A stretch of DNA of 64,000 nt, from positions 310,001 to 374,000 of the forward strand of contig NZ_BMYQ01000002.1 in NCBI RefSeq assembly GCF_014652355.1. Direction: 5' to 3'. The notes under the pieces were generated by a model that was not told the DNA's origin, ran no database searches, and saw only the letters and a list, made by a program, of their open reading frames with translations. Each line of letters opens with the position of its first letter. Position 1 is the stretch's first letter. Positions 21,294 through 50,975 of this stretch are shown here, piece by piece. The position numbers and the translations under genes are program-made. The DNA comes from Gemmobacter lanyuensis. GTDB taxonomy: Bacteria > Pseudomonadota > Alphaproteobacteria > Rhodobacterales > Rhodobacteraceae.

Positions 21294-21323
21294 ACCGCGG
21301 GAACGGCGGGGCATGGGGGTGTG

Positions 21324-32648: not shown

Positions 32649-32966
32649 CGGCCGGTCCGGGCTCCAACACAGCGACACGGGGGCCGCGGGGGTCACATTG
32701 AACACCCGCCTTGCGGCGGAAAATGTTGTCGGAATAACCCAAGGTTCACCCGAAGGTGACGCTGCGCTGGATTCGTCCGGGCCCCCGCCCAGTTACCGAC
32801 CTTTATCAGAAACGCCTTCAAAATGGAAGAGCGGCCGCCCTTCGGATGCGCGGCGCGATGGCGCGACAACCCTTCGCACCCATCGGCGAATTCCCTGCCT
32901 TTTTCTTGCCTTGCGGGACGCTGCCGCGCGCTTAGGATGGCTGCACGTCACCAGGAGTTGGGTGCA
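32649..32966. other. Divergent intergenic region between CpsD-like and GT2 genes
   Basis: About 318 bases containing the promoters for both directions. I see a small hairpin TCACC-CGAA-GGTGA near 32745-32760 and nothing I would call a gene; frames that cross it are antisense or out of phase with neighbours. Confidence 0.5.
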
Positions 32967-34664: not shown

Positions 34665-34814
34665 GTCGATACCTGTTACTTCCTTTCGCTTTAGCATGGC
34701 TGCCGGTGTTTTTCAGTATGCAGGAGCAGGAAAAACACTTTGTTTCCCGGCTTGCCACGGTCCCGCATGGGGTGATGATGGACAGCGGGGGGCGCGCTCG
34801 CGTAGCCAAGGGGG

Positions 34815-35720
34815 ATGACCGACCCACGATCCCCTTCGGGCCATCCGCACCGGCAGGCCATCGACCTCGCGCGCTTTTTGGCGGCGTTCGGGATTGTCGT
34901 GGCACATGCGACCGTTTCTCCGCGGGATTGGGTGGGGCATCTGGCCCTTGCGCTGTTCCTGATCCTGACGGCTTTTCTGGCGGTGCAGTCCGTGGCGCGG
35001 GCTGGCGGGCGCTATGGCTGGCTGCGGCGGGCGCGTCGGTTGTTCCTGCCGTGGGTGTTCTGGTCGGTGCTCTATCGTCTGCTGGATCTGGCGATTTCGG
35101 ATGATCCTGACCGGTTCATCCCCCTGCGTGAGCCCTTTTCCCTGCTGGTCGGCCCGGCGGTTCATTTGTGGTTCTTGCCCTTTGTCATTCTGGCCATGAT
35201 CCTGGTGCAGCCCGTCGCCCTTTGGGTGACCGACGCGCAGAGGTTGGCCCGGGCGCTTGGTCTGCTTTTGCTGGGGGGAGTTGGTCTGTTCTGGGTGCAT
35301 GGCGCGTTCATCCTGCCTGAGCCGTTTCCCCAATGGGCCTTCGCACTGCCGCTTTATGCCTATGGCCTGTTGCTGGCCCCTGCCCATCGGCTGGGCCGGG
35401 TCGGATGGCTTTTGGGGGGGATGGCGGTGCTTTCGGGGCTGATGTGGTGGGTCGATCCGCAGCCCTGGCCGCTGACGGCGCTGGGTGCGGCGCTGTTGTT
35501 CGAACTGTTCTGGCGCCTGCCGCTGCGCCACCCGATCCTGCCGTGGCTGGGCAGCGTGGCCTTCGGCATCTATCTGATGCATCCGTTCTTCATGCTCTTT
35601 GCCTACAAGGCCTTCGGTGAGGATGTCGGCTGGCCGCTCAAGACGGCAGTGGCCTTCGGTCTGTCCTGGGCGGCGACCTTGGGCATACAGCGGCTGCCCG
35701 TGCTGCGGACCATGGTTTGA
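34815..35720 (+). CDS. Acyltransferase family 3 membrane protein
   Basis: A 301-residue polytopic protein with about 8-9 hydrophobic helices. The opening HRQAIDLARFLAAFGIVVAHA holds the conserved Arg and the catalytic-type His of the acyltransferase-3 family, and SVAFGIYLMHPFF near the C-terminus is the second diagnostic block. Such proteins O-acetylate or O-acylate sugars of exopolysaccharides. It heads the long plus-strand run that ends with the PPTase and zapE. The ribosome site (AAGGGGG) is unusually close to the ATG. Confidence 0.85.
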   Translation: MTDPRSPSGHPHRQAIDLARFLAAFGIVVAHATVSPRDWVGHLALALFLILTAFLAVQSVARAGGRYGWLRRARRLFLPWVFWSVLYRLLDLAISDDPDRFIPLREPFSLLVGPAVHLWFLPFVILAMILVQPVALWVTDAQRLARALGLLLLGGVGLFWVHGAFILPEPFPQWAFALPLYAYGLLLAPAHRLGRVGWLLGGMAVLSGLMWWVDPQPWPLTALGAALLFELFWRLPLRHPILPWLGSVAFGIYLMHPFFMLFAYKAFGEDVGWPLKTAVAFGLSWAATLGIQRLPVLRTMV

Positions 35721-35757
35721 CGGGCACCCCAATGCTAGACTGCGTCCCACCCGCTAC

Positions 35758-35763
35758 AGGAGG
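35758..35763 (+). promoter_or_regulatory. Strong Shine-Dalgarno that supports a CTG start
   Basis: AGGAGG, six bases before CTG 35770. No ATG, GTG or TTG lies in frame at a suitable distance; the nearest GTG (35824) would delete the first half of the first membrane helix. This site decides the start of the polymerase-like gene. Confidence 0.55.
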
Positions 35764-35769
35764 TCGCCC

Positions 35770-37179
35770 CTGATCACGCCGAACCCCATTGCCTGGCTTG
35801 CACTGCTTGGCTGGCCGTTTGTCGTGCTGGTGCTCTATCGGCGCCTGCCGCCGGATCGGGCGCTGATCTGGACGATTCTGGGCGCCTATCTGGCCCTGCC
35901 TCCTGTGATTGCGCTGAATTTCCCGGTGATCCCGGACCTGAGCAAGGAAAGCCTGCCGAACCTGATGGCCTTGTCCATGGCCCTGTTCGTGCTGAAGGAT
36001 CGCATCAGCCTGCTGCCCGACAGTCTGGTCGGGCGGGTGCTGATCGCCATTTTCGTGCTGTCGCCTTTTGCCACGGTGCTGACCAATGCCGAACCCGTGG
36101 CCAAGGGACCGGCGCTGATTCAGGGAATGCGGCTTTACGACAGTGTCGCCGCCGTCGCCAATCAGGCGATTGCGGTGCTGCCCTTCTTTCTGGCGCGGCG
36201 CTACCTTGCCACGCCCGAGGCGATGCGGGCCATTCTGGTGGCGCTGGTCGGGGCCGGGCTGGTCTATTCGATCCCGATGCTGATCGAAATGCGCCTCTCG
36301 CCGCAGATGAACGTCTGGATCTATGGCTATTTCCAGCATGATTTCTTTCAGACCATCCGCGCGGGCGGCTATCGGCCGGTGGTCTTTCTGCCCCACGGGC
36401 TTTGGGTGGCGTTCTTCGCCCTCATGGCGGCGCTGAGCGCGCTGATCCTCTTGCGCGCAAGTCCGGTAGAGCGGCGGGCGCGCATGGCGTTGGCGACGCT
36501 CTGGCTCATGCTGCTTCTGGTCTTGTGCAAAAGCATGGGGGTTCTGGTCTATGCGGCGGGTCTGGTGCCGCTGCTGATGCTGGCCCCCCGCCGGGTGCAG
36601 GTCCTGCTGGCGGCGGCCGCGGCGGCGCTGGTGCTGTCCTATCCCTTGTTGCGGGGGGCGCATCTGCTGCCCATGTCGGAGATCACCGCCTTTGCCGAAC
36701 GGTTTTCGCCGGAACGTGCGGGCTCGTTCCAGTTCCGCGTGGATAATGAGGAAAACCTGCTTGCGAGGGCCGAGCTGAAACCCTGGTTCGGTTGGGGCGG
36801 ATATGGACGCAACCTGATCTATGATCCGATCACCGGGGCGGGGCAGTCCATCGCAGATGGGGCCTGGATCATTACGCTGGGGATCTATGGCTGGTTGGGC
36901 TATCTGGCGCAATTCGGTCTGCTGGTGCTGCCGCTGCTGCTGCTGGCGCGGGAAACCCTGCGCCAGAAGGTCGAGGTGTCGCCTTGGGTCGCCGGGGTCA
37001 GCCTGATCCTTGCGGCCAATCTGGTCGATCTTCTGCCCAATGCGACAATCATTCCCTTCACCTGGCTGATGGCCGGGGCCATTTTGGGGCGGGCCGAGGC
37101 GCTGGCCCGTAGCCGCCGCACCGCCCCGGTTGAAGCGCGTCGCGCTGCGCGGGCGCGACCCTCGAAAACGGTGATCTGA
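35770..37179 (+). CDS. O-antigen ligase/polymerase-like (Wzy/WaaL) membrane protein
   Basis: A ~469-residue polytopic protein with around 11 helices and a large periplasmic loop: FQHDFFQTIRAGGYRPVVFLPHGLWVAFF and WFGWGGYGRNLIYDP resemble the O-antigen ligase (PF04932-like) group. It likely polymerises repeat units or ligates the chain. The reading frame opens with CTG ATC ACG CCG AAC directly after AGGAGG, so a CTG start is probable. The frame is open back to 35599, but that part is antiphase to the acyltransferase gene and unlike a membrane protein. Its stop overlaps the next ATG by one base (TGATG). Confidence 0.78.
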   Translation: MITPNPIAWLALLGWPFVVLVLYRRLPPDRALIWTILGAYLALPPVIALNFPVIPDLSKESLPNLMALSMALFVLKDRISLLPDSLVGRVLIAIFVLSPFATVLTNAEPVAKGPALIQGMRLYDSVAAVANQAIAVLPFFLARRYLATPEAMRAILVALVGAGLVYSIPMLIEMRLSPQMNVWIYGYFQHDFFQTIRAGGYRPVVFLPHGLWVAFFALMAALSALILLRASPVERRARMALATLWLMLLLVLCKSMGVLVYAAGLVPLLMLAPRRVQVLLAAAAAALVLSYPLLRGAHLLPMSEITAFAERFSPERAGSFQFRVDNEENLLARAELKPWFGWGGYGRNLIYDPITGAGQSIADGAWIITLGIYGWLGYLAQFGLLVLPLLLLARETLRQKVEVSPWVAGVSLILAANLVDLLPNATIIPFTWLMAGAILGRAEALARSRRTAPVEARRAARARPSKTVI

Positions 37180-38168
37180 TGCGCGTCGATCTGGGCATCT
37201 TCGCGCATGATGAAGGGGCGACCATCGGCCGGATGGTGGCCGGGGTTCTGGCGCAGGACAGGGGCGGGCTTGATCTGCGGGTGTTGGTGCTGGCCAATGG
37301 TTGCACCGATGACACCGCCGCCCGCGCCCGCGCCGCCGGGGCCGAGGTGGCGGATCTGCCCGAGGGCGGGAAAAGCCGCACCTGGAACCGCTTCGTCCAT
37401 GATCTCTCGCGCTCTGATGCCGAGGTGCTGATCTTTGCCGATGCAGATATTGAGCTGCCCACGCCCGACACGCTTTTGCAGCTGGTGGCGCTGTTGCAGG
37501 CGCGCCCGGGGCTGCATGTCGCAAATTCTCGCCCGGTGAAAGATATTGTTGCGCGCCCCGAGGGGCTTGGCCTGCAAGATCGGCTGATCGCCATGGCCGG
37601 GGGCACGCTGGATGATTGGCGCACGGCGATCTGTGGGCAGCTTTACGCCATGCCAGCCGCGCGGGCGAGGGCGCATCACCTTCCCATCGGTCTGCCGGTT
37701 GAGGACGGGTTTCTGCGCGCCATGGTCCTGACCGATGGTCTGACCGCGCCCGAGGATCTGTCGCGTCTGGACGGGGCTGGGGCCTGGCATGTCTATGCCT
37801 CTGAACGCAGCATCGGCGCGCTGATCCGGCATCAGGTGCGGATCGTTATCGGATCGGCCATCAATAGCGCCATTTTCGAAACAATCGTTGCCCTGCCGCC
37901 GGATCAGCGGGTGGGGGTGCTGCGGTCCGCGGCCGAGCAGGAGGGGTGGTTGCCCCACCTGCTGCACCGCCGTTTGCCGCGCTGGCCGCAGGGCTGGGTG
38001 CCGGTGCATTTCCTGCTGAAGCGCAGCCAGAATCTGTTGCGCGACCGCCGCAGATTGTGGGCGCCAAAGGGGCTGATCCTGCTTGTCGCGGGGTTTGGCT
38101 TTGATCTGATTGTTTACCTGCGCGCACAAATCCAGATGGCAAGAGGCACCGGTGCCGGGTATTGGTAG
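37179..38168 (+). CDS. Glycosyltransferase family 2
   Basis: A 329-residue GT2 enzyme: VDLGIFAHDEGATIGRMVAG, VLVLANGCTDDTAARA, LPEGGKSRTWNRFV and the metal-binding FADADIELP. LPVEDGFLRAMVL is the catalytic region, and a C-terminal hydrophobic helix (LILLVAGFGFDLIVYL) gives membrane contact. It is close in pattern to the GT2 at 24662-25489 (NGCTD, GGKxxxxN), so the two may handle similar donors. Translation is coupled to the polymerase-like gene (TGATG). About 215 bases separate it from the PKS. Confidence 0.85.
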   Translation: MRVDLGIFAHDEGATIGRMVAGVLAQDRGGLDLRVLVLANGCTDDTAARARAAGAEVADLPEGGKSRTWNRFVHDLSRSDAEVLIFADADIELPTPDTLLQLVALLQARPGLHVANSRPVKDIVARPEGLGLQDRLIAMAGGTLDDWRTAICGQLYAMPAARARAHHLPIGLPVEDGFLRAMVLTDGLTAPEDLSRLDGAGAWHVYASERSIGALIRHQVRIVIGSAINSAIFETIVALPPDQRVGVLRSAAEQEGWLPHLLHRRLPRWPQGWVPVHFLLKRSQNLLRDRRRLWAPKGLILLVAGFGFDLIVYLRAQIQMARGTGAGYW

Positions 38169-38383
38169 GCCAAAAGTGATGAAAACCCCATCCGTTTAGC
38201 ATGAAATGCGGCGGAATCGTGGCATTGTCCGAAGCTGGGGGATGATCGGTTCCGCCGGTCGCCTCGGGTATCGCCGCGCCGCAGCTTGCGCTAGATTATA
38301 GCTTGGGTGGGGCCAAATTTTTTGGCATTTCGGCGGCAAGGCGCATGGGGCTGCGCCCTGCATCCGGCATGTGGTGAGACGTG
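38169..38383. other. Intergenic region upstream of the PKS
   Basis: 215 bases, the only sizeable gap in the plus-strand run from 34815 to 52100, and thus the best place for a dedicated PKS promoter. An AT-rich patch GATTATAG (38293-38300) and the T-run at 38319-38324 stand out; I could not define a full promoter or terminator. Confidence 0.35.
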
Positions 38384-41300
38384 ATGACCGGTGCGGATTT
38401 CACCCCCGACGGGGTGGCAGAGACAGATATTGCGATTGTCGGCATGGCAGCCCATCTGCCCGGCGCGCCGTCGATTGTTGAATATTGGGAAAACCTGCGA
38501 AACGGGATCGAAAGCATCCGCCACCTGTCGGAAGCCGAGCTGCTGGCCAATGGCGAAAGCCCCGCCCGCCTGCGCCAGCGCAACTATGTGCCCGCCGCCG
38601 CCATTCTGGACCAGTTCGAACATTTCGATGCCGAGTTCTTTGGCTTCAGCCCGAAAGAGGCCGCGATCCTTGATCCGCAGCACCGCCATTTTCTTGAGGT
38701 CGCATGGGAGGCGCTTGAAAACGCAGGCCATGTGCCGGACCGGTTCAAAGGCTCCATCGGGGTTTATGCGGGCTGCGGGATGGGCAGCTATTTCTATTTC
38801 AACCTGTGTTCCAACCGCGATCTGGTGGATGGCACGGGGATGTTCCTGCTGCGCCATACCGGGAACGACAAGGATTTCCTCTCGACCCGGGTCAGCCATG
38901 TCTTTGACCTTCGGGGGCCGTCGATCAATATCCAGACCGCCTGTTCCACCAGCCTTGTGGCGGTGCATTATGCGACGCAGGCCCTGCTGAACGGCGAATG
39001 TGACATGGCGCTGGCCGGGGGCGTGACCATCGAATTGCCCCATGGCCGCGGCTACCTGTTCCAGGAGGGTGAGATCCTTTCCCCCGACGGGCATTGCCAC
39101 GCCTTCGACCATCGCGCGCAAGGGACGGTCTTCGGGTCGGGGGCGGGCTGTGTGGTGCTGCGCCGTGCGGTCGATGCACTGCGCGACGGGGATCACATCT
39201 GGGCGATCCTCAAGGGCAGCGCGGTCAACAATGACGGGGCGGCCAAGGCCGGCTATCTGGCGCCCTCGGTCGAGGGGCAGGCCGCCTGCATCGCTGAGGC
39301 GCAGGCCATCGCCCGGATTTCCGCCGATACGGTGGATTATGTCGAATGTCATGGCACTGGCACCTATCTGGGCGACCCGATTGAGGTGGCGGCCCTGACG
39401 CAGGGCTTTGCCCAATCGGCCCAGACGGTCGGCACCTGCCGCATAGGCAGCGTGAAGACCAATATCGGCCATCTGGATACCGCGGCGGGGGTGGCGAGCC
39501 TCATCAAGGTCGCCCTTGCCCTGCATCATCGGCAGATCCCGCCGACCCTCGGGTATGAGGCCCCAAACCCCGCGATTGATTTCGAAACCTCGCCCTTCCG
39601 GGTGAATGACCGGCTGACCGACTGGCCCGCGGGCGCCCATCCGCGTCGGGCGGGGGTCAACAGTCTGGGCGTGGGCGGCACCAATGCCCATGCCGTGGTG
39701 CAAGAGGCCCCGGCCCGCGCGCCGTCCGACGACAGCATGTGGCCCTTCCAGCCCATCGTCGTGTCTGCCCGGTCCAAGGCTGCGCTGGATGCGGCCTGCG
39801 GGCGGCTTGCAGCACATCTGCGCGCGCATCCCGAACAGCCGCTGGCCGATGTCGCCTTCACCCTGAAAGAGGGGCGGCGCGCCTTTGAAAAGCGCCGGGT
39901 GCTGGTGGCGGAAAGCCATGCCCAGGCTGCTGACCTGCTGGAAGGCAAAGACCCCCGCCGTATCTTCAGCCATGACCATCTGGGTGACGACCCCGAGGTC
40001 GTGTTCATGTTCCCCGGTGGCGGCGCGCAATATGCCGGCATGGCCCGCGACCTTTATGAAACCGAGCCTGAATTCCGCGATTGGATGGACCGTGGCCTTG
40101 CCGTGCTGCAACCGCGGCTGGATTACGATCTCCGCGCGCTCTGGCTGCCTGAGGTCGATGCGATGGCCGCGGCGAATGAGCGGCTCAAGCGCCCCTCGGT
40201 CCAGCTGCCGCTGATCATGATCACCGAATATGCGCTGGCCAAGCTTTACGAAAGCTGGGGCGTCAGCCCTGCCGCGCTGATCGGGCACAGCATGGGGGAG
40301 AACACCGCCGCCTGTCTGGCGGGGGTGATGTCGTTTGAGGATTGCATCGGCCTTGTCCACCTGCGCGGGCAGCTGTTCGACACCGTGCCGCCGGGGGGGA
40401 TGCTCTCGGTCCCGATGGAGGAGGCCGAGCTGCGCCCGCTGCTGACCGGCGATCTGGATATGGCCAGCGTGAATGCGCCGGGCCTTTGCGTGATTTCCGG
40501 CCCGGATGCGGCGCTGGCCGATCTGGCGGCACGGCTGGCCGCCGCGGGTGTCGAAACCCAGCGCATCGCCATCGACATCGCCGCACATAGTCGCATGCTG
40601 GACCCGATCCTTTCGCGGTTTGAGGCTTATCTGCGGTCCATCCCGCTGCAGGCGCCGCGCCTGCCGGTGATTTCCAACCGCACGGGCCTGCCGCTGACAG
40701 CGGAACAGGCGACCAGCCCGGAATACTGGGTGCAGCATCTGCGGAATACGGTTCTGTTCCAGCCCGGCATGGCGCATCTCATGTCCACCCCCGGGCGGGT
40801 CTATATGGAGATGGGGCCGGGCCGGGCGCTGTCGTCGCTGGCGCAGGCGAATGGTGTGGCGGCAGGGCAGGTGATCCCGGCGTTGCGGCATCCGGAACAG
40901 GCGATCCCCGATGACCAATGGCATATGGCCAGCCTGCTGCGTCTTTGGGCCTGCGGCGTGGCGGTGGATTGGGAGCCGATCTGGGGGGGCGCCCGCCGCT
41001 GCAAGTTGCCGCTGCCGGGCTATGCCTTCCAGCGTAAACCCTATTTCATCGCTCCCGCGCAGCCCGCGCTGGTCGAGGCTGATCCCCTTCCGATGAAGCT
41101 GCCCGATCCGGCCGATTGGGGCTGGACCCCGGCCTGGCGCGCCAAGGCGGTGGTTGAAGAGGATGAGGCCGCGCCCCGGACCTGGCTCGTCTTTGTCGAT
41201 GATACCGGGCTGGGGGATCGTGTGCTGGCGCGGTTGCAGGCGGCGGGGCATCAGGTGGTGCCGGTGCGCCCCGGTGATGCCTTTGCCCGCGATGGCAAGG

Positions 41301-44300
41301 GGGGCTATGTCCTCAACCCCGAACGGGGGCGCGACGGCTATGAGGCGCTGCTGCGCGACCTTTCGGCCCATGGTCGTGTGCCGGATCGCATCGCGCATCT
41401 GTGGTTGGTTACCGCCGAGGAACGCTTCCGCCCGGGATCAAGCTTCCTGCACCGCAATTTGGAACAGGGCTTTCAGGCGCTGCTGTCGCTGGCGCAGGCG
41501 ATTGCGGGCGAAGACCTGCCCCGCCCGCTGCACCTGACCGTGCTGACGACAGGCGCCGCGCAGCACAAGGACGAAGGGCTTCCCTATCCGGAAAAGGCGA
41601 CCATCGCCGGGCCGGTGCGGGTGATCCCGCGCGAATTGCCGGGTGTGACCTGCGCCACGCTGGATGTGGTATTGCCTGCCACGGCGCGGGGGTGGCGCGC
41701 GCGTCCCGATCCTGCCGCGCTGGACCATCTGGCCGATCAGGTAGCCGAGGATCTGCTGGGCGCGCCCGGCAATCACATGGCACTGCTGCGGGGAGAGCGG
41801 CGCTATGAACGCGGGCTGAAAAAACTGGCCCTGCCGCTCGCCGCCCTCGATCTGCCGCAGGGGGCGGCGGTGATGATCACCGGTGGGTTCGGCGGTATCG
41901 GTCTGACGCTGGCGGAACGTCTGGCGGCGGAGTGCAAGGCGCGCATCCTGCTGGTGGCCCGGCGCGATCTGCCACCGCGTGAGGCCTGGGCTGCGCATCT
42001 GGCCCGCTTCGGTCAGGCCGAGGCGGTGTCGCGCCGGATTCTTGCCGTGCAGCGGCTGGAAAGCCTCGGCGCGCAGGTCATGGTCGCGCAGGCCGATGTC
42101 TGCAACGCCGAAGAGATGCGCGCCGCCGTGGCCTCGGCCACAGCGGCCTTCGGGCCGCTGCGCGTGGTGATCCATGCCGCCGGGGTGGTGGATGATGGCC
42201 CGCTGCTGACCAAGACGCCCGCCGCGGTGGAACAGGTGATGGCGCCCAAGCTTTTGGGGACACAGGTTCTCGACCAGCTTTTCCCCGATGGCAGCCTTGA
42301 CCTGCTGGTCCTTTTTGCCTCGTCCTCGACCGTGACAGGCCCGGCGGGGCAGGTCGATTATGTGGCGGCGAATGAATATCTGAACGCCTATGCCCAATCC
42401 CGTCAGGGTGGAAAAACCCGCGTTCTGGCGCTGAACTGGGGCATCTGGGCCGATGTCGGCATGGCGGCCGAGGCGATGGCCGACCGCAGCCCCGGCACCC
42501 CCGACCCGGCGCCCGTGCAGCACCGCCCGCTGCTGGACGCCGTCTGGCAGGATCGGAGCGGCACCCGCATCTTCACCACCGAACTGACGACGGACCGTTG
42601 GATCCTTGATGGCCACCGCACCCGCGCCGGGCAGGCGCTGATCCCCGGCACCGGCTATCTGGAACTGGCCGCCGAAGCGGCCGCCGAGGCAGGCCTGCCC
42701 GCGTTTGAGCTGCGCGATCTGACCTTCCTACGTGCGCTTGAGGTGCCGGATGGCGCCCGCCGCAGCCTGCGCCTGAAGCTTGATCCCACCAATGAGGGCT
42801 ATGGGTTCGAGGTCCGGTCGAGCCATGACTGGAAGGGGCGTATCGGGTTTGCCCTGAACGCGCAGGCGCGGCTCTTGCCGCTGCGCGCGGCACCGGGGCA
42901 GATCGACCCTGCTGCCATCGCCGCGCGCTGTGGTGCTGTCACGGAAGACCCGCGCGGTCTGCGGTCACCGCAGGAGGATCACCTTACCTTTGGCCCACGC
43001 TGGCGGGTGCTGCACCGCATGGCGCTGGGCGCCGGGGAGGGGCTGGCCACGCTGACCCTGCCGCTGGCCGCTCAGGTGGACCTGAAAGAGGGGTGGCTGA
43101 TGCACCCCGCGCTGATGGATCTGGCGACGGGCTGGGCCATGGGGCTGATCGCGGGCTATCGGCCCGATCACCTTTGGGTGCCGGTGTCCTATGGCCGGGT
43201 GCGGGTCTGGGGGCCGATCCCGGCGCGCATCCTCAGCTGGGTCCGCAATGCTGCCCCCAATGCGGCGGCGGGGCCGGTGGCGGTTTTCGACGTGACGCTG
43301 GCGGATGACACGGGCCGCGTTCTGGCCGAGATTTCGGGCTTTACCATCCGCAAGCTGGAAGGTGGCCTTGCCCCCGCCCCGCTGGCTGAACGCGATCTCG
43401 AATTCGACACCCCCGACCCGGCCAAGCCCCCTTCGCCGCAAGAGGAACGGCTGCTTCACAACCTGTCGCAGGGGATCTCTGCTGCTGAAGGGGCGGATGC
43501 CTTTGCCCGCGCGCTTGCGGCGGGTGGGGCGCAGATCGTTGTCTCCTCGCTTGATCTGCCGACTTTGGTGCGACAGGCCGAGCGGGTTGAAGCCCCGCGG
43601 GCCGAGGGCCAAAGCTTTGCCCGCCCGGATCTTGAGAGCGATTATGTCGAACCCCGCACGCTGGTCGAACGCACGCTGGTCGGGTTTTGGCAGGATCTGC
43701 TGGGCGTCGGGCAGGTGGGGGTCGAGGATGATTTCTTCGCCCTCGGCGGCCATTCGCTGATTGCCGTGCGGCTCTTTGCCATGGTGAAAAAGGCCTTCCG
43801 GGTGGATTTCCCGATTTCCATCCTGTTCGAGGCGCCCACCATCGCCGCCTGCGCCCAGCTGATCGAAAATCGCATTGGCCCGCAAGAGGCGGAAGAAGAC
43901 CGCCCCGAACCCGCCATGCGACGGCAGTTCACCCATCTGGTGCCGATGCACGAAGGCAGTGGCGGCGCGGGGACGCCGTTCTTCCTGGTGGCGGGGATGT
44001 TCGGCAATGTGCTGAACCTGCGGCATCTGGCGCAGATCCTGGGCCGGGATCGGCCCTTCTACGGCTTGCAGGCGCGGGGGCTGTTTGGCGATGCCCCGCC
44101 CCACACCACCCTGCCCGAGGCCGCGCGCGACTACATCGCCGAGCTGCGTCAGGTGCAGCCGCATGGCCCCTATCTGCTCGGCGGTTTTTCGGGCGGTGGC
44201 CTGACCGCCTGGGAAATGGCGCGCCAGCTGGAAGAAGCGGGCGAGGTTGTGGCGGCTCTGGTCCTGCTGGACACGCCGCTGCCGATGCGCCCGGCGCTGT

Positions 44301-44770
44301 CGCGCGTCGACAAGGCCCTGATCAAGCTTGCGGAACTGCGTGAAAAGGGGCCGCGCTATCTGATCGACTGGGCCAAGGCCCGCTATGCCTGGGAACGCGA
44401 AAAACGCCGCCCCAAGGCGCCGACCGACGCGCTGCACCAGTTCCACAATGCCGAGATCGAAGCCGCCTTCCGCGCGGCCCTGCCGGTTTATGATCTGCAA
44501 CCGCGGCAGGGCGTCACGGCGCTTTATCGCCCGCCGCTGGATCGCAAATGGCAGGTTTCGGGTGGCAACTGGGTCAGCACGGCCAAGGAATATGTCTTTG
44601 CCGACAATGACCTGACACGCTTTGCCCCGCGCCTTACGGTGCATGAGGTTCCGGGCGACCATGACAGCATGGTCCTTGATCCGCATGTGCGGGTGCTTGC
44701 GGCGCGTCTGCGTGAGCTCTTTGCCGCGGCCGAACCCCGTGTGGCGGATCTGCAAGAGGCGGCCGAGTGA
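38384..44770 (+). CDS. Type I polyketide synthase, KS-AT-KR-DH-ACP-TE
   Basis: A 2128-residue single-module PKS with all catalytic residues visible. KS (about 12-440): Cys187 in QTACSTSLV, His323 in ECHGTGT, His363 in TNIGHLD. AT (about 545-850): Ser636 in GHSMGE, with IAAH around His735 where specificity motifs lie, so the extender is uncertain (malonyl likely). KR: structural half ~870-1150, then GGFGGIGL at 1167, Tyr1326. DH: His1411 (H-x3-G-x4-P) and Asp1579 in HPALMD. ACP Ser1791 in LGGHSL. TE: Ser1936 in GFSGGG, His2093. No ER or methyltransferase: an unsaturated chain, possibly made iteratively. DH after KR is not the usual order. ATG 38384 preferred to GTG 38381. Confidence 0.93.
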   Translation: MTGADFTPDGVAETDIAIVGMAAHLPGAPSIVEYWENLRNGIESIRHLSEAELLANGESPARLRQRNYVPAAAILDQFEHFDAEFFGFSPKEAAILDPQHRHFLEVAWEALENAGHVPDRFKGSIGVYAGCGMGSYFYFNLCSNRDLVDGTGMFLLRHTGNDKDFLSTRVSHVFDLRGPSINIQTACSTSLVAVHYATQALLNGECDMALAGGVTIELPHGRGYLFQEGEILSPDGHCHAFDHRAQGTVFGSGAGCVVLRRAVDALRDGDHIWAILKGSAVNNDGAAKAGYLAPSVEGQAACIAEAQAIARISADTVDYVECHGTGTYLGDPIEVAALTQGFAQSAQTVGTCRIGSVKTNIGHLDTAAGVASLIKVALALHHRQIPPTLGYEAPNPAIDFETSPFRVNDRLTDWPAGAHPRRAGVNSLGVGGTNAHAVVQEAPARAPSDDSMWPFQPIVVSARSKAALDAACGRLAAHLRAHPEQPLADVAFTLKEGRRAFEKRRVLVAESHAQAADLLEGKDPRRIFSHDHLGDDPEVVFMFPGGGAQYAGMARDLYETEPEFRDWMDRGLAVLQPRLDYDLRALWLPEVDAMAAANERLKRPSVQLPLIMITEYALAKLYESWGVSPAALIGHSMGENTAACLAGVMSFEDCIGLVHLRGQLFDTVPPGGMLSVPMEEAELRPLLTGDLDMASVNAPGLCVISGPDAALADLAARLAAAGVETQRIAIDIAAHSRMLDPILSRFEAYLRSIPLQAPRLPVISNRTGLPLTAEQATSPEYWVQHLRNTVLFQPGMAHLMSTPGRVYMEMGPGRALSSLAQANGVAAGQVIPALRHPEQAIPDDQWHMASLLRLWACGVAVDWEPIWGGARRCKLPLPGYAFQRKPYFIAPAQPALVEADPLPMKLPDPADWGWTPAWRAKAVVEEDEAAPRTWLVFVDDTGLGDRVLARLQAAGHQVVPVRPGDAFARDGKGGYVLNPERGRDGYEALLRDLSAHGRVPDRIAHLWLVTAEERFRPGSSFLHRNLEQGFQALLSLAQAIAGEDLPRPLHLTVLTTGAAQHKDEGLPYPEKATIAGPVRVIPRELPGVTCATLDVVLPATARGWRARPDPAALDHLADQVAEDLLGAPGNHMALLRGERRYERGLKKLALPLAALDLPQGAAVMITGGFGGIGLTLAERLAAECKARILLVARRDLPPREAWAAHLARFGQAEAVSRRILAVQRLESLGAQVMVAQADVCNAEEMRAAVASATAAFGPLRVVIHAAGVVDDGPLLTKTPAAVEQVMAPKLLGTQVLDQLFPDGSLDLLVLFASSSTVTGPAGQVDYVAANEYLNAYAQSRQGGKTRVLALNWGIWADVGMAAEAMADRSPGTPDPAPVQHRPLLDAVWQDRSGTRIFTTELTTDRWILDGHRTRAGQALIPGTGYLELAAEAAAEAGLPAFELRDLTFLRALEVPDGARRSLRLKLDPTNEGYGFEVRSSHDWKGRIGFALNAQARLLPLRAAPGQIDPAAIAARCGAVTEDPRGLRSPQEDHLTFGPRWRVLHRMALGAGEGLATLTLPLAAQVDLKEGWLMHPALMDLATGWAMGLIAGYRPDHLWVPVSYGRVRVWGPIPARILSWVRNAAPNAAAGPVAVFDVTLADDTGRVLAEISGFTIRKLEGGLAPAPLAERDLEFDTPDPAKPPSPQEERLLHNLSQGISAAEGADAFARALAAGGAQIVVSSLDLPTLVRQAERVEAPRAEGQSFARPDLESDYVEPRTLVERTLVGFWQDLLGVGQVGVEDDFFALGGHSLIAVRLFAMVKKAFRVDFPISILFEAPTIAACAQLIENRIGPQEAEEDRPEPAMRRQFTHLVPMHEGSGGAGTPFFLVAGMFGNVLNLRHLAQILGRDRPFYGLQARGLFGDAPPHTTLPEAARDYIAELRQVQPHGPYLLGGFSGGGLTAWEMARQLEEAGEVVAALVLLDTPLPMRPALSRVDKALIKLAELREKGPRYLIDWAKARYAWEREKRRPKAPTDALHQFHNAEIEAAFRAALPVYDLQPRQGVTALYRPPLDRKWQVSGGNWVSTAKEYVFADNDLTRFAPRLTVHEVPGDHDSMVLDPHVRVLAARLRELFAAAEPRVADLQEAAE

Positions 44771-45750
44771 TGCCCACGGTCCTGACGGTGATCCTCAACT
44801 GGCGCACCCCCGACATGACCCTGCAAGCCGCCGAGGCAGCCCTGCGGGCGATGGAGGGGGTCGAAGGCGCGATCACCATCGTCGACAATGATTCCGGCGA
44901 CGGGTCCTATGAGACGATGCTGGCCGAGGTTGCCGCGCGCGGCTGGGACAGGGGCGCCGTGCCGGTGCGGGTGCTGCAATCGGGGTGGAACGGTGGCTTT
45001 GGCGCCGGGAATAACTACGGTATCCGCGCGGGGCTGCCGGGCGGGCAGCGGCCCGATTTTGTCTATATCCTGAATTCCGACGCCTTCCCCGCGCCCGATG
45101 CCATCCGCGCGCTGCGGGATCACCTGATCGCCCATCCTGCAACCGGCTTCGCGGGCAGTTTCATCCATGGCGATGACGGGGCGCCGCATCAGACGGCCTT
45201 CACCTTCCCCTCGGTCTGGTCCGAGCTTGAGGGCGCGGCCCGGCTTGGCCCGATCTCGCGCCTGTTGCGGCGGCATGTCGTGGCGCGCCCGGTGCCTGCG
45301 GCAACCTGCCGGGTCGATTGGCTGGCCGGGGCAAGCCTGATGATGCGGCAGGATGTGCTGGACCGGATCGGCCTGTTTGACGAAACCTTCTTTCTGTATT
45401 TCGAGGAAACCGACCTCTGCCTGCGCGCGGCGCGGGCGGGGTGGCCCACCGATTACGTCCCCGCCTCGCGCGTGATGCATATCGGCTCGGTTTCGACCGG
45501 GATGGGGCGCTGGACGCGCATCCCGAAATTCTGGCTGGACAGCCGCCGCCACTATTTCACCAAGAACCATGGCCGCATTGGCGCGCATCTGGCGACGCTG
45601 GCGCATGTGTCGGGGGGCGCGCTGTGGCGGCTGCGGCTTTTGGTGCAACGGAAAGAGCGGGGCGATCCGCCGCATTTCCTGCGTGATCTGATCCGGCATC
45701 ATCTGCGGGGGGCTGGTGCCTGCAAGACCAAGGCCCGCCCTGCGGAATAG
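44770..45750 (+). CDS. Glycosyltransferase family 2 (WbbL/rhamnosyltransferase-like)
   Basis: A 326-residue GT2 enzyme: TVILNWRTPDMTLQAAEAAL, ITIVDNDSGDGS, GWNGGFGAGNNYGIRAG and the metal site YILNSDAFP, then FDETFFLYFEETDLCLRAARAGW, the hallmark of rhamnosyltransferases such as WbbL. The ATG overlaps the PKS stop by one base, and the NRPS starts 34 bases after its stop. A glycosyltransferase translationally coupled between PKS and NRPS suggests that the PKS/NRPS product, or a lipid-linked acceptor, is glycosylated. Confidence 0.87.
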   Translation: MPTVLTVILNWRTPDMTLQAAEAALRAMEGVEGAITIVDNDSGDGSYETMLAEVAARGWDRGAVPVRVLQSGWNGGFGAGNNYGIRAGLPGGQRPDFVYILNSDAFPAPDAIRALRDHLIAHPATGFAGSFIHGDDGAPHQTAFTFPSVWSELEGAARLGPISRLLRRHVVARPVPAATCRVDWLAGASLMMRQDVLDRIGLFDETFFLYFEETDLCLRAARAGWPTDYVPASRVMHIGSVSTGMGRWTRIPKFWLDSRRHYFTKNHGRIGAHLATLAHVSGGALWRLRLLVQRKERGDPPHFLRDLIRHHLRGAGACKTKARPAE

Positions 45751-45784
45751 CGGTATGGCCGCCATCGGGCGGAAGGAGTGTGTG

Positions 45785-48700
45785 ATGACCCCGTTTTCCT
45801 GTTTCCTGATCGGGAATGAAACCCTGACCCGCGAATGCGGTGACATGCTGCTGGCCCGTGGCCATCAGATTGCTGCGCTGGTAACCCGCGCGGCAGAGCT
45901 GCGGGCCTGGGGGCAGGGGCGGGGGCTGGTGGTCATTGATCAGCGCCCGGGGTGGGAGGCGGATCTGCCGGGACCGGCCGATTGGCTGCTCTCGGTGGCG
46001 AACCTGTCGCTGGTGCCGCCTGCGGCGCTGGCACAGGCCACGCGGGGCGGGGTCAATTTTCACGATGGCCCCCTGCCGCGCCATGCCGGGCTGAATGCCC
46101 CGGTCTGGGCGCTGCTGGAAGGCGAAGTGGAGCATGGCATCACCTGGCATTTGATCACCCCCGGCGTGGATGAAGGCGACATTCTGCTGCAACGCCGCTT
46201 TGCCATTCTGCCCGGTGATACGGCGCTGACGCTGAACACGCGCTGCTTTGAAACCGCGCTGGACAGCTTCCCCGACCTGCTGACCGCGCTGGAAAGCGGC
46301 GTGCCCGCACGGCAGGCGCAGGATTTCACGGCCCGCAGCCTGCATCTCCGGGCGGATCGGCCCGCCGGAGCCGGGCGGCTCGATTTCACGCAGGCGGCTG
46401 CGGATCTGGAGCGTCTGGTTCGTGCGCTGGATCATGGCACCTATTGGAACCCGCTGACCACCGCCAAGATCTGGGATGGCGCGCGGCATATCGTGGTGGG
46501 TGGGGCCGAGGTGGTGGCAGGCAGCGGCGTGCCGGGTCAGATCCTTGCCGCAACCGCCGAGGAAGTGACCGTGGCCTGCGGGCAGGGCGCGCTGCGTCTG
46601 ACGCGGCTGACCTGCCAAAAGGGCTTTCCGGTGGATGCGACGCGCCTGCCCAACCCGCTGCCCAACCCCACGCCTGCCGAGGCGCTGGCCCTGACCGCGG
46701 CGCTGGCCGGTGTGGCCCCGACCGAGGGCGCCATGCGCAAAGCGCTGCTCGCGCTGAACCCTGCCGAGGTTCCGGGCGCCAGCGCCGCCACGGTGCCGGC
46801 CTTCTGGCAACAGGTGCCGGTCGCTTTGCCGTCGCTGGCGCTGGCTGCGTTGGCGGCGGTGCGGCTGTCGGGCAAGCCCGAGGCCGATCTGGCCTATGGC
46901 GCCGCCCATGCGACCGAGGGCATCCTGTCGGATTGGGTGCCGCTGACGGTGGAGGCCCAAGGACCCCTGCCCGAGGCGCTGGCCCGGACCGAGGCCGCGC
47001 TGCAGCGGGCCGAGGCCGCGCCGGCCTTTGCGCTTGATCTGCTGGCGCGGGATCGACGTCTGTTCGGGCTGCAACCGCCCGCCTTTGGCCTTGGTCTAGC
47101 GCCAGTGCCGGGCACGGTGGTCACGCTGACGCCGACTGCGCTGCACTTTGATGCAAGTCGTCTTACTGCCGATCAGGCGCAGGCGCTGGCGGCGCGGCTG
47201 ATGGCCTTTGTCGCCGCCGCAACCGGCGATGCGCCGGTTGAAACCCTGCCCATCCTGACCGAGGCAGAGCGGATCGCGGCGCTGGAAGCGCCCAATCGCA
47301 CCGCCAAAGCCTATGACGCCACGCTTTGCGTGCATCAGGCCTTTGAGGCGCAGGTCGCCCGCACGCCCGAGGCCACGGCCGTGGTGTTCGAGGGCCAGTC
47401 GCTGACCTATGCCCAGCTGAACGCCCGCGCCAATCAGGTGGCCCATGTGTTGATCGGCCTAGGGGTGCAGCCCGGAACGCTGGTGGGGCTGCATATGCGC
47501 CGCTCGCTCGACCTTCTGGTGGGGGCCCTGGCCATTCAGAAGGCCGGGGGCGCCTATGTGCCGATGGACCCGGCCTATCCTGCCGACCGCACCGCGCTTT
47601 ATCTGGAAGACAGCGCCTGCCCGGTGGTGGTGACCGACAGCAGGCTTGCCGCGCAGCTGCCGCCGCATGGCGCGGCGGTGATCTGCCTTGATACCGACCC
47701 TCGCCTTGCGGGCGCCGGGGTTGAAAACCCGCAATCCGGCGTCAGTTCCGCGGATCTGGCCTATATGATCTATACCTCGGGCTCGACCGGGCGGCCCAAG
47801 GGCGTGATGGTCGAACATCGCAACGTGGCCAATTTCTTTGCGGGCATGGATGACCGTATCGACCATGCCGAAGGTGCGGTCTGGCTGGCGGTCACCTCGC
47901 TCTCCTTCGACATTTCGGTGCTGGAGCTGTTCTGGACGCTGGCCCGCGGCTTCAAGCTGGTGCTGACCAGCGACGAAAACCGGGCGCTGGTGTCGAACGG
48001 GCGCATCACCTCGGCCAAGGGGATGGAGTTCTCGCTTTACTACTGGGGCAATGATGACGGGGCGGGGCCGAAGAAATACGAATTGCTGCTGGAAGGTGCC
48101 AAATTCGCCGACCGTCACGGGTTCTGCGCGGTCTGGACGCCGGAACGTCACTTCCACGCCTTTGGCGGCCCCTATCCGAACCCCGGCGTGACCGGGGCGG
48201 CCGTCGCGGCGGTGACGAAACGCATTGGGGTGCGGGCCGGGTCGGTCGTGCTGCCGCTGCATCACCCGGCGCGCGTGGCCGAAGATTGGGCGGTGATCGA
48301 CAACCTGACCAACGGGCGCGCGGGCCTTGCGGTGGCCAGCGGCTGGCAGCCCGATGATTTCGTGTTGCGCCCCGAGAATACCCCGCCCGACAACCGCGCC
48401 GCCATGTTCGCCGGGATTGATCAGGTCCGCCGTCTGTGGCGGGGCGAGAGGGTCGATTTCCCGACCCGGACCGGCAGCTTCGGTGTGGTGACACAGCCGC
48501 GCCCTGTTTCGCCGGAGCTCGAGGTCTGGATCACCACGGCGGGCAACCCGGCCACCTGGCGCGAGGCGGGCGAGATTGGCGCCCATGTCCTGACCCACCT
48601 TCTGGGTCAGAGCATTGAGGAGGTCGCTGAAAAGATCCGCATCTATCATGCGGCGCTGCGCGGTGCGGGGCATGATCCGGCGCGCTTCAAGGTGACGCTG

Positions 48701-50350
48701 ATGCTGCACACCTATGTCTGCCGCGACCGCGAACAGGCCCGGCGCGTGGCCGAAGGGCCGATGAAGGCCTATCTCGGCGCGGCGGTGGGGTTGGTCAAGC
48801 AATACGCCTGGGCCTTCCCCGCCTTCAAGAAGCCGCAAGGCATTGAAAAGCCGGAAGACATCGACCTGCGGACGCTGTCGGGGGAAGAAAGCGACGCGAT
48901 CCTCGACTTCGCCTTCCAGCGGTATTTTGAGGATTCGGGCCTGTTTGGCACGGTGGATGATGCGCTGGCGCGGGTCGAAACGCTCAAACGCATCGGTGTG
49001 ACCGAGGTCGCCTGCCTGATCGATTATGGCATCGCCCCCGAGGTGGTGATGGAAGGGCTTTATCCCCTGGCCGAGGTGCTGCGTCGCGCCAATGCCGGGG
49101 CTGGCCCGGCCGAAGATGATTTCTCGATCGCCGCGCAGATCATCCGCCATGGGGTGACGCATCTGCAATGCACCCCCTCGATGGCGCGGATGATCCTGAT
49201 GAATGACGAGGCGCAGATGGCGCTGGGGGAGGTGAAGACCCTGCTTCTGGGCGGTGAGGCGCTGCCCGGCGCCTTTGTCCGCGAGCTGCGTCGGGTGACG
49301 CAGGCGCGCATCCTGAACATGTATGGACCGACGGAAACGACGATCTGGTCCACGGTCGAAGAGGCCGGGGGGGATGAGGGCGTCTGCAATATCGGCACCC
49401 CTATCGCCAATACGCAGGTCTATGTGCTGGACGACCAGCAGCAACCCGTGCCGCCCGGTGTGGCGGGCGAGCTGTGGATCGGCGGCGATGGCGTGACGCG
49501 CGGCTATTGGCAGCGCCCCGACCTGACGGCCGATCGCTTCCGCCCCGATCCCTTCACCGGGGCAGGGCGCGGGCGGATGTATCGCACCGGCGATCTGGTG
49601 CGGCTGCGGGGGGATGGCAAGCTCGATTACCTCGGGCGAAGCGACCATCAGGTCAAGCTGCGCGGCTATCGGATCGAGCTGGGCGAGATTGAAAGCACGC
49701 TGGAAACCCTGCCGGGCGTGACGCAGGCGGTGGTCTTGGCGCGCGAGGATCAGCCTGGCGATCTGCGGCTGGTGGCTTACCTGACCGGGCCTGCGCGCGA
49801 AGCGACGCTGCGCCCTGCACTGGCCGCGCTGTTGCCCGAACATATGGTGCCTGCGCATTTCGTGACGCTGCCGTCTTTCCCGCTGACACCGAACCGCAAG
49901 GTGGACCGCAAGGCCCTGCCACCGCCGCAGGTGCAATCGGTGGAGGAGGTGACACCCGACCCCGCCCCGGCCGAGGGCGATCTGCTGGCCCGGATCGCGG
50001 CCGTCTGGCAAAAGGTGCTGGGTGTGCCGAAGGTCGGGCCGCGCGACAATTTCTTTGCGCTGGGGGGCCATTCGCTGTTGGCGGTGCAGGCGCATCGGGA
50101 ATTGCGCGACGGGTTGGGCCTGACGCGGCTGTCGATCACCGATATCTTCCGCTTCCCGGTCTTGTCGGCGCTGGCGGCCCATCTGGGCGATGCCCCGCGC
50201 CCCGCGCCGGCGCCCCCCGCTGCCCCGCGCGCGCCGGTGGTGGTGGCGCCGGTCGCACCGCCGCCGCTCGCCCCGGCGAATGACCGGGCCGATGCGCGGG
50301 CCGAGGCGATGGCCCGCCGTCGGGCGTTGAGGGCTGGCCGCGATGGATGA
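45785..50350 (+). CDS. NRPS: formyltransferase, adenylation with inserted luciferase-like monooxygenase, PCP
   Basis: A 1521-residue MupA/Atu3671-type protein. Residues 1-290: methionyl-tRNA-formyltransferase-like domain, NFHDGPLPRHAG with Asn91/His93 and GVDEGDILLQ. About 320-510: condensation-like C-terminal half without HHxxxDG. A domain: LTYAQLNARAN, YTSGSTGRPKGVMVEH (664), FDISVLELF, then interrupted at ~730-1100 by a flavin-dependent luciferase-like monooxygenase (starting MEFSLYYWGNDDG), and resumed at THLQCTPS, MYGPTE (1179), YRTGDL and NRKVDRKAL (Lys1372). PCP Ser1430 in LGGHSL. The ten specificity residues read D709 I710 L713 Q1128 L1154 G1156 M1179 I1187 W1188 K1372, the glycine code. 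No TE. ATG follows GAAGGAG. Confidence 0.92.
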   Translation: MTPFSCFLIGNETLTRECGDMLLARGHQIAALVTRAAELRAWGQGRGLVVIDQRPGWEADLPGPADWLLSVANLSLVPPAALAQATRGGVNFHDGPLPRHAGLNAPVWALLEGEVEHGITWHLITPGVDEGDILLQRRFAILPGDTALTLNTRCFETALDSFPDLLTALESGVPARQAQDFTARSLHLRADRPAGAGRLDFTQAAADLERLVRALDHGTYWNPLTTAKIWDGARHIVVGGAEVVAGSGVPGQILAATAEEVTVACGQGALRLTRLTCQKGFPVDATRLPNPLPNPTPAEALALTAALAGVAPTEGAMRKALLALNPAEVPGASAATVPAFWQQVPVALPSLALAALAAVRLSGKPEADLAYGAAHATEGILSDWVPLTVEAQGPLPEALARTEAALQRAEAAPAFALDLLARDRRLFGLQPPAFGLGLAPVPGTVVTLTPTALHFDASRLTADQAQALAARLMAFVAAATGDAPVETLPILTEAERIAALEAPNRTAKAYDATLCVHQAFEAQVARTPEATAVVFEGQSLTYAQLNARANQVAHVLIGLGVQPGTLVGLHMRRSLDLLVGALAIQKAGGAYVPMDPAYPADRTALYLEDSACPVVVTDSRLAAQLPPHGAAVICLDTDPRLAGAGVENPQSGVSSADLAYMIYTSGSTGRPKGVMVEHRNVANFFAGMDDRIDHAEGAVWLAVTSLSFDISVLELFWTLARGFKLVLTSDENRALVSNGRITSAKGMEFSLYYWGNDDGAGPKKYELLLEGAKFADRHGFCAVWTPERHFHAFGGPYPNPGVTGAAVAAVTKRIGVRAGSVVLPLHHPARVAEDWAVIDNLTNGRAGLAVASGWQPDDFVLRPENTPPDNRAAMFAGIDQVRRLWRGERVDFPTRTGSFGVVTQPRPVSPELEVWITTAGNPATWREAGEIGAHVLTHLLGQSIEEVAEKIRIYHAALRGAGHDPARFKVTLMLHTYVCRDREQARRVAEGPMKAYLGAAVGLVKQYAWAFPAFKKPQGIEKPEDIDLRTLSGEESDAILDFAFQRYFEDSGLFGTVDDALARVETLKRIGVTEVACLIDYGIAPEVVMEGLYPLAEVLRRANAGAGPAEDDFSIAAQIIRHGVTHLQCTPSMARMILMNDEAQMALGEVKTLLLGGEALPGAFVRELRRVTQARILNMYGPTETTIWSTVEEAGGDEGVCNIGTPIANTQVYVLDDQQQPVPPGVAGELWIGGDGVTRGYWQRPDLTADRFRPDPFTGAGRGRMYRTGDLVRLRGDGKLDYLGRSDHQVKLRGYRIELGEIESTLETLPGVTQAVVLAREDQPGDLRLVAYLTGPAREATLRPALAALLPEHMVPAHFVTLPSFPLTPNRKVDRKALPPPQVQSVEEVTPDPAPAEGDLLARIAAVWQKVLGVPKVGPRDNFFALGGHSLLAVQAHRELRDGLGLTRLSITDIFRFPVLSALAAHLGDAPRPAPAPPAAPRAPVVVAPVAPPPLAPANDRADARAEAMARRRALRAGRDG

Positions 50351-50975
50351 TCTGGCCGCCCTTGCCCGCGCTGCGCGGGATCTTCTGCCGCAGGGGCATG
50401 GCCTGGGCGTTACCGATCCGCGTGCGGCCCACCCCGCCTTTCCGGGCGAAACGGTCGCGGGGGTGGCCAAGCGGCAATCGGAATTCCGTGCAGGGCGCCA
50501 TGCCGCGCGGGCGGCGCTGGCCGAACTGGGCCTGCCTGACCGCCCCATCCCCGCCGGGGCGGATCGCGCACCGATCTGGCCGCTGGGTCTGATCGGGTCG
50601 ATCAGCCATAGCGACCGCCTTTGTCTGGCTGCCGTAGGTCGTGGGCGGGGCATCGGCGTTGATCTGGAACCCGCCGAACCACTGGAGCCGCAGATCCATC
50701 GCATGATCCTGTCGCCCGAGGATCGCGGGTCCGAGGGCGCGGTGATCTCGGGCCTGGAGACCCGGCTGATCTTTTCCGCCAAGGAAGCCGCCTATAAGGC
50801 GCAATATCCGCTGTCGCGGCAGCTGTTTGATTTTCAGACGCTGGCCGTCACGGTGCAGGGGGATCGCTTCGAAGCGCGCTTCCGCCGTGACATTGCCCCA
50901 TTTACCCCGCAGTCTGTGCTGCAAGGCCGCTGGGCGCAGGTGGCGGGGCATTTCCTCTGTGTCGTGGCGCTCTGA
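50343..50975 (+). CDS. 4'-phosphopantetheinyl transferase (Sfp/EntD type)
   Basis: A 210-residue PPTase: GSISHSDRLCLAAVG, then GIGVDLEPAEPLE with the metal-binding Asp, and IFSAKEAAYKAQYP with the metal Glu and CoA-binding Lys, in the EntD-like arrangement. It transfers phosphopantetheine from CoA to carrier proteins; the adjacent targets are the PKS ACP (Ser1791) and NRPS PCP (Ser1430). It overlaps the NRPS gene by eight bases, so its production is tied to that of its substrates. Confidence 0.92.
   Translation: MDDLAALARAARDLLPQGHGLGVTDPRAAHPAFPGETVAGVAKRQSEFRAGRHAARAALAELGLPDRPIPAGADRAPIWPLGLIGSISHSDRLCLAAVGRGRGIGVDLEPAEPLEPQIHRMILSPEDRGSEGAVISGLETRLIFSAKEAAYKAQYPLSRQLFDFQTLAVTVQGDRFEARFRRDIAPFTPQSVLQGRWAQVAGHFLCVVAL

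Follow-up and report, generated by a model that had tools for sequence, protein, structure and literature searches.

Co-inheritance of a peptide synthetase–polyketide synthase gene set with a slime-polysaccharide pathway suggests a new kind of chemical decoration of the sugar coat

We analysed a stretch of 64,000 nucleotides from Gemmobacter lanyuensis (contig NZ_BMYQ01000002.1, positions 310,001 to 374,000; hereafter the window), in which a type I polyketide synthase (PKS), a GT2 glycosyltransferase (GT2e), a non-ribosomal peptide synthetase (NRPS) and a phosphopantetheinyl transferase (PPTase) follow one another, in this order, inside an exopolysaccharide (EPS) locus. An earlier note on this DNA had described the PKS, NRPS and PPTase as colinear within such a locus, and the open reading frames (ORFs) together with their Pfam domains bear this out. 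Across related genomes, which represent a widespread group of aquatic bacteria, the set is inherited together with genes for making a slime polysaccharide, and this association points to a new type of chemical modification of the sugar coat. The core genes are as follows.

38381..44770, plus strand: PKS, type I, one module of ketosynthase (KS), acyltransferase (AT), ketoreductase (KR), dehydratase (DH), acyl carrier protein (ACP) and thioesterase (TE) (Pfam; active sites invariant in 74 rows)
44767..45750, plus strand: GT2e, the core glycosyltransferase (PF13641; in 79 of 80 loci and 53 of 149 genomes)
45785..50350, plus strand: NRPS, formyltransferase (FT), adenylation (A) domain of predicted glycine type (code DILQLGMIWK) with an inserted luciferase-like monooxygenase (LLM), and carrier (Pfam, NCBIfam, alignment)
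50343..50975, plus strand: PPTase of Sfp type (the only 4PPT_N match in the genome)

The PKS stop codon (TGA, 44768-44770) overlaps the GT2e start codon (ATG at 44770) by 1 bp and the NRPS overlaps the PPTase by 8 bp, both exactly as the note had given them. The NRPS frame is open from 45716 and ends at 50350; its likelier start is the ATG at 45785, which lies 34 bp past the GT2e stop and is directly preceded by GGAAGGAG. The translational linkage that had also been proposed between the PKS and the glycosyltransferase at 37179-38168 (GT2d) did not hold, as the two are uncoupled and separated by a gap of ~210 bp. Searches of the 4.03-Mb genome returned a single PF16197-type PKS and a single 4PPT_N PPTase, both within the core locus, so that their clustering is not a matter of chance. 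With just one such PKS in the genome, a multi-module antibiotic-type line was rejected; a phage origin was likewise rejected, since the two phage matches cover 22% of the query and are confined to its generic A/carrier part. The interval from 24.6 to 45.2 kb holds 4 of the 13 GT2 (PF00535) matches listed for the genome, one of the four below cut-off, in a listing that did not include the GT2 at 37179. Homologues of the genes on the right-hand side (AFG1, carbonic anhydrase, M17 and NlpC) occurred in only 6-9 of 86 loci; these genes were therefore not counted as members, and the locus was taken to end at 50975.

The remainder of the locus consists largely of polysaccharide genes, preceded by two proteins with SGNH-like domains (u304 and u806; TM, transmembrane).

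21321..22235, plus strand: u304, SGNH-fold esterase/acyltransferase-like protein with an N-terminal TM-like stretch (model, Foldseek, S51/D235/H238)
22248..24668, plus strand: u806, SGNH-like N-terminal domain and probable TIM-barrel glycoside hydrolase (model, Foldseek)
24662..25489, plus strand: GT2a glycosyltransferase (PF00535)
25486..26259, minus strand: GT2b, weak GT2-like protein (PF00535 below cut-off)
26256..27491, minus strand: GT1/GT4-type glycosyltransferase (PF13692, PF00534)
27484..28899, plus strand: Wzx-type flippase (PF13440; in 52 of 53 GT2e-positive genomes)
29667..30380, plus strand: WbaP/EPS-type sugar-phosphate transferase, the initiating enzyme (PF02397; TIGR03022/TIGR03025 below cut-offs)
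30444..31694, minus strand: Wzz-type chain-length protein (PF02706)
31698..32705, minus strand: Wzc-like tyrosine autokinase (TIGR03018/TIGR01007 below cut-offs)
32823..33914, plus strand: GT2c glycosyltransferase (PF00535)
33918..34697, minus strand: WecG/TagA/CpsF glycosyltransferase (PF03808)
34815..35720, plus strand: AT3 membrane acyltransferase (PF01757)
35599..37179, plus strand: multi-TM protein, Wzy/ligase candidate, start probably downstream of 35599 (9 TM-like stretches)
37179..38168, plus strand: GT2d glycosyltransferase (PF00535)

The locus has a Wzx flippase, an initiating transferase, a Wzz protein and a Wzc-like kinase, the NCBIfam matches of kinase and transferase lying below their cut-offs. 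The acyltransferase of the note belongs to Acyl_transf_3, and its Wzy/ligase-like gene at 35599-37179 is a Wzy candidate at most: the multi-TM product has homologues in 42 of 86 loci and no Pfam or NCBIfam match. No Wza outer-membrane exporter was present among the Pfam-scanned ORFs from ~16 to 59 kb, the rest of the window and of the genome not being part of that search.

Co-inheritance was assessed across the family with 149 genomes, each representing a different genus; every search used the same set, and E-value limits were picked after inspection of gaps (GT2e, E ≤ 2.7e-110; Wzx, E ≤ 1e-120; glycoside-hydrolase (GH) part of u806, E ≤ 1e-100; FT part of the NRPS, E ≤ 2.3e-40; u304, E ≤ 1.8e-70). 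We found GT2e orthologues in 53 of the 149 genomes, the window Wzx in 53 and the FT part in 55, the latter two each sharing 52 genomes with GT2e, while the GH part of u806 occurred in 51, all within the GT2e set. u304 was present in 30 genomes, of which 29 belong to the 56 genomes that make up the core-positive union; in the remaining one, G118, a 100-residue piece of GT2e (69% identical) sits at a contig end. The u304 search had listed 31 genomes, from which G023 (9.6e-35, core-positive) was dropped as nearer to the u806 type, and the FT-part search 58, from which G015, G054 and G105 (near 1e-20) were dropped. Among the 52 genomes with both GT2e and Wzx, the two genes lay within 25 kb of each other in 43, more than 1.4 Mb apart in two and on different contigs in seven. 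Because the genes are far apart or on different contigs in some genomes, the association is more than physical linkage.

Gene order was compared in the best 80 of 379 related stretches that a scan of named genome contigs returned, some of them short contigs. Most are Rhodobacteraceae by label, together with seven Hydrogenophaga and one Curvibacter metagenome-assembled genome (MAG); the nearest named relatives by NRPS are Gemmobacter, with 8 of the 10 loci so labelled 78-81% identical over the best segment. PKS, GT2 and NRPS were contiguous on one strand in 73 of the 80 loci, and GT2e was present in 79, the PKS in 77 and an adjacent PPTase in 69. Median identity was highest for GT2e (67%), followed by the PKS (64.5%), the NRPS (61%) and the PPTase (44%). 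At least two further polysaccharide-set families of the window accompanied the core in 61 of the 67 loci that span 20 kb or more, and in 66 of 80 overall. Two loci with weak sugar context were searched further, five ORFs each, and in one of them, Hydrogenophaga L032, we found WecG, two GT1/GT4, PIG-L and an integrase gene. Polysaccharide context was also seen in eight of ten plasmid loci, namely Ruegeria (two), Paracoccus (two), Aminobacter, Shinella, Parasedimentitalea and Neorhizobium, the last judged from window homologues, its record being unannotated. Three of these loci (Aminobacter, Shinella and Neorhizobium) have a divergent PKS and a non-adjacent GT2e, the best GT2e relative in Shinella being 40% identical and ~12 kb from the NRPS. 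The contiguity of the core, the recurring polysaccharide families and the co-occurrence together uphold the single shared pathway that the note had proposed, and we regard membership of the PKS-NRPS in the polysaccharide pathway as strongly supported, mainly by co-inheritance with Wzx and the hydrolase.

Some of these loci showed features of their own. In Hydrogenophaga L040 a second NRPS (18134-24082; A(DIP2-like)-PCP-C-A-PCP-TE, where PCP is a peptidyl carrier protein and C a condensation domain) adjoins the core directly before u304, and L034 has an ORF comparable in length and position at 18780-24791. Another NRPS adjoins a WecB/TagA gene ~9 kb before the core PKS of Paracoccus liaowanqingii (L092:1-1626; record 97001-101056). 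At the expected PPTase place in Ruegeria sp. SCSIO 43209 (L090:22665-23451) are a short hypothetical protein and then an annotated transposase, and no PPTase homologue was found in that locus. The MAG labelled Exiguobacterium profundum (CP059262.1) carries a Rhodobacteraceae-type cluster with 66% identity, and the label looks wrong.

Pfam and NCBIfam place N- and C-terminal formyltransferase parts, an AMP-binding domain split by the monooxygenase, and a carrier in the NRPS, and the Pfam scan gave no Condensation match and no TE. The insert (residues 772-1121) belongs to the MupA/Atu3671 family of luciferase-like monooxygenases (TIGR04020, E 3e-139). In an alignment of 85 rows (the window and the 84 of 86 loci with a match, coverage >90%), the FT residues N114, H116 and D152 of the N-x-H...D motif were invariant in all rows, as were the A10 lysine and the carrier serine. 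Against solved structures, the FT part has ordinary relatives among methionyl-tRNA and sugar formyltransferases. The ten-residue code of the window A domain is shared by 10 rows; 62 read DILQMGMIWK, 10 DILQFGMIWK and three otherwise, the variation falling mainly at position 299. The linear gramicidin glycine module, whose substrate we took to be glycine, was tried as a check on the code and was of no help, as its residues differ. Four glycine-activating A domains with a monooxygenase (MOX) insert all carry DILQLGMIWK in the account given in PMC12283262, and by this identity we infer that the window A domain is glycine-specific. The NRPS is probably an initiation-type module that starts the chain. 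In Paracoccus marcusii (L094:13517-18108) the NRPS is annotated as two overlapping genes, an FT part and an A(LLM)-PCP part.

The PKS is a reducing module in which Pfam places the DH after the KR and gave no enoylreductase (ER) match. The catalytic residues of KS, AT, KR, DH, ACP and TE were invariant in an alignment of 74 rows, and the DH part has ordinary relatives among PKS dehydratases of solved structure. The AT motif reads IAAH in 74 of 74 rows, unlike the textbook malonyl or methylmalonyl motif, and the closest solved AT is that of ZmaA; ZmaA presumably uses special extenders, for which no supply genes were seen, and it was not used to assign the AT substrate. The DH keeps its His and Asp and has Gly at position D+4 in 74 of 74 rows, where Gln or His is usual. 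The KR-like gene at 20427-21293 was rejected as part of the PKS, being a short-chain dehydrogenase.

u304 has no Pfam match, and its AlphaFold2 model (pLDDT 89.9) gave 4i8i as the best Foldseek match (E 2e-7); it matches SGNH/GDSL esterases, and the OatA domain more weakly. Ser51, Asp235 and His238 were invariant in 10 aligned rows, consistent with an SGNH fold with Ser and DxxH. A number of relatives have the gene after the PPTase gene; in Ruegeria L089, for instance, the two overlap by 4 bp. For u806 the AlphaFold2 model was just fair (pLDDT 72); its best Foldseek match was to GH51 (E 3e-4, with low TM-scores), followed by PatB (E 1e-2). Its C-terminal part resembles clan-A glycoside hydrolases and its N-terminal SGNH-like part is related to u304. 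The u806 profile matches RTX proteins, and RTX-type GGxGxD motifs occur near the C-terminus in 8 of 11 aligned rows (L055, L056, L064, L068, L070, L080, L081 and L082, at the left ends of their loci), the window copy and L088 lacking them; these motifs suggest that the relatives bearing them are secreted. The predicted activities of u304- and u806-type enzymes would fit an acylated polysaccharide.

Two diverged relatives inform the order of the modules. On the Aliiroseovarius plasmid (L101:12450-26189), which also carries nitrous oxide reductase (nos) genes alongside, an FT-A(LLM)-PCP gene precedes KS-AT-KR-DH-ACP-C-A-PCP-TE with both on one strand, and no annotated glycosyltransferase or flippase was found in the 31 kb covered. 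In Methylobacterium L102, an unannotated record, the NRPS precedes the PKS and the one window homologue nearby is a GT1-like gene ~10 kb away. Both NRPSs retain the FT residues and the Gly-type code. The co-linear L101 supports the order FT module to PKS module, which is the gene order in both relatives; the window has the two genes the other way round. Since L101 lies beside nos genes without an annotated glycosyltransferase or flippase, the module pair also serves other products; the product of L101 is likely a free metabolite from the same module type, and the module is not exclusive to polysaccharides. The note had held that homologous clusters unlinked from sugar genes would count against its reading, and these two diverged members of the ten plasmid loci partly fit that description, L102 only apparently; the other eight are polysaccharide-linked.

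Parts of this system have counterparts in print. Terminal amide-forming modules with a monooxygenase in the glycine A domain (Gly-MOX domains), which we take to be of the myxothiazol type, have an upstream C domain and a terminal position; the window NRPS has the insert and neither of the other two features. According to PMC12283262, the luciferase-like domain inside such glycine A domains cleaves the glycine backbone to leave a terminal amide, whereas the window module, with the identical code, has an FT and no C-domain match. An F domain, a glycine A domain and a carrier start the PKS in conglobatin and, by the same account, in oxazolomycin (PMC4504003), although there the PKS is not the one-module enzyme of the window, nor does the A domain hold a monooxygenase. 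The window module combines the FT initiation of conglobatin with a MOX-insert glycine A domain. Several other TIGR04020-type enzymes, of the same subfamily as the insert, differ in having assigned steps, hydroxylation or Baeyer-Villiger reactions on growing chains, in the part of PMC8739492 concerned with them. RkpA and WcbR resemble the window PKS, by their description in PMC3908369, as mono-modular type I PKSs in polysaccharide loci, but that description mentions neither an NRPS partner nor glycine loading. Roseobacters have a conserved cluster in which an NRPS, a PKS, a glycosyltransferase and a PPTase stand together, found in 28 of 57 genomes and given as uncharacterised in product (PMC4337385, citing Martens et al.). 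In Phaeobacter inhibens, PMC4062626 names a PKS (Inhi_1972) and an NRPS (Inhi_1974) that probably belong to the cluster studied here. By description the Roseobacter genes are the same four kinds that lie together in the window, and the fetched Ruegeria and Tateyamaria relatives fit the description; the FT-A(Gly)-LLM anatomy, the tie to polysaccharide and the SGNH and GH partners are described here and not in the relevant passage of PMC4337385. In the open-access papers searched we found neither a polysaccharide link for this NRPS-PKS set nor a case of polysaccharide decoration by an NRPS-PKS line.

These elements can be arranged into a pathway. The PPTase would activate both synthases; the NRPS would load glycine, the FT domain would formylate it, and the inserted FMN monooxygenase would probably oxidise the glycine unit. 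The N-formyl(hydroxy)glycyl unit would then pass to the one-module PKS, which would add a malonyl-type C2 unit, reduce it and probably dehydrate it, before the TE released a short formamido-acyl group. GT2e might place this group, or a sugar bearing it, in the repeat unit (or the TE or AT3 might transfer the acyl group) of a Wzx-dependent EPS started by the WbaP-like enzyme, and periplasmic or secreted SGNH enzymes and the glycoside hydrolase might transfer the group or strip it off and also cleave the polymer. That the two-enzyme line builds a small glycine-based acid is probable. We lean, with somewhat better than even confidence, towards the pair making a short, N-formylglycine-primed acyl substituent of a Wzx-dependent polysaccharide that undergoes SGNH and glycoside-hydrolase processing. 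The fuller proposal, that an N-formylglycine-derived formamido-acyl EPS substituent is made in ~1/3 of the genera of the family (53 of 149), with dedicated SGNH and esterase-glycosidase enzymes for its transfer or removal, is tentative and in our judgement falls a little short of even.

The set might instead make a free metabolite for secretion, such as a signal, an antibiotic or a siderophore, which GT2e may glycosylate, and have no more than a genomic island in common with the EPS genes. Such clusters are treated as secondary metabolism in print (PMC4337385, PMC8273931), the latter describing pCP157_02, on which the P. marcusii relative lies, as holding one large HSR-NRPS-PKS hybrid cluster, and related modules occur apart from a polysaccharide locus in L101 and apparently in L102. 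We nevertheless consider a free metabolite unlikely, as Wzx and GH are co-inherited with the set across the 149 genomes, unlinked cases included, polysaccharide genes surround the set, in varying order, in Roseobacteraceae, Rhizobiaceae, Phyllobacteriaceae and Hydrogenophaga, and no dedicated small-molecule exporter was found among the ORFs searched in 21321-50975. There is a slim chance that the product serves the polysaccharide as its lipid anchor or as a primer, as is conceivable for capsule-locus PKSs of the RkpA/WcbR type, given that the mono-modular wcbR and rkpA genes stand in capsular polysaccharide synthesis and export clusters (PMC3908369); a glycine-loading FT-NRPS, a reducing module that lacks an ER match, and the presence of a WbaP-type starter favour a short substituent over a long lipid. 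Of the products that the note had entertained, an acyl or aminoacyl decoration fits best and a lipid anchor poorly, because the acyl group would be short, glycine-primed and TE-released and the locus has its own WbaP-type starter. It is improbable, too, that GT2e transfers a nucleotide- or lipid-linked building block, so that the product would become part of the backbone rather than a side group: GT2e is the most conserved core protein by median identity and sits between PKS and NRPS in those 73 loci, but it is non-adjacent in the Aminobacter, Shinella and Neorhizobium loci.

Several observations weigh against an acyl substituent of the polysaccharide. The role of the monooxygenase is its weakest point: by the known reaction the glycine starter would be destroyed, so that the enzyme must either halt at hydroxylation or act later. 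The specificity of the AT is ambiguous, given the IAAH motif and ZmaA as nearest solved relative, and the DH may be inactive in view of Gly at D+4. L101 and L102 pair these modules without homologues of the window Wzx, Wzz or GT2 genes, and the sugar context of Curvibacter L020, the other locus searched further, is thin, comprising one GT1/GT4, GT2e and u304 (the other flanking ORFs being an FAD oxidase, a solute-binding protein and two unmatched). Within the 149 genomes, u304 is missing from 27 of the 56 core genomes, G062 has GT2e without Wzx, and in G022 and G144 the FT part occurs with no orthologue of either GT2e or Wzx. Looser limits raised the counts to 57 genomes for Wzx and 55 for GH (52 common with GT2e in each case), with a Wzx relative in five genomes and a GH relative in three that have no GT2e orthologue; two weaker Wzx rows, G104 and G066, were left out of strict and loose counts alike. 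One of the five, G147, has the FT part, Wzx and u304, and its GT2e match (42% identical, 1.4e-60) was not counted. Fisher values for the associations, ~1e-13 to 1e-38, treat genomes as independent and ignore kinship.

If the set does decorate a polysaccharide, it would represent a class of decoration built by an NRPS-PKS assembly line. If it belongs to an exopolysaccharide pathway, many aquatic bacteria would owe part of their sugar-coat chemistry to assembly-line enzymes, and anyone seeking a free product of this 'secondary metabolite' cluster would be examining the wrong extract; the question of the product becomes directly testable, in the polymer.

Directly to the left of the EPS locus, at 17085-20556 of the window, lie genes for a ChrR-like zinc-cupin protein, a sigma-70 factor, a flavin amine oxidoreductase and a DUF1365 protein, a group that we take to resemble the RpoE/ChrR singlet-oxygen genes.

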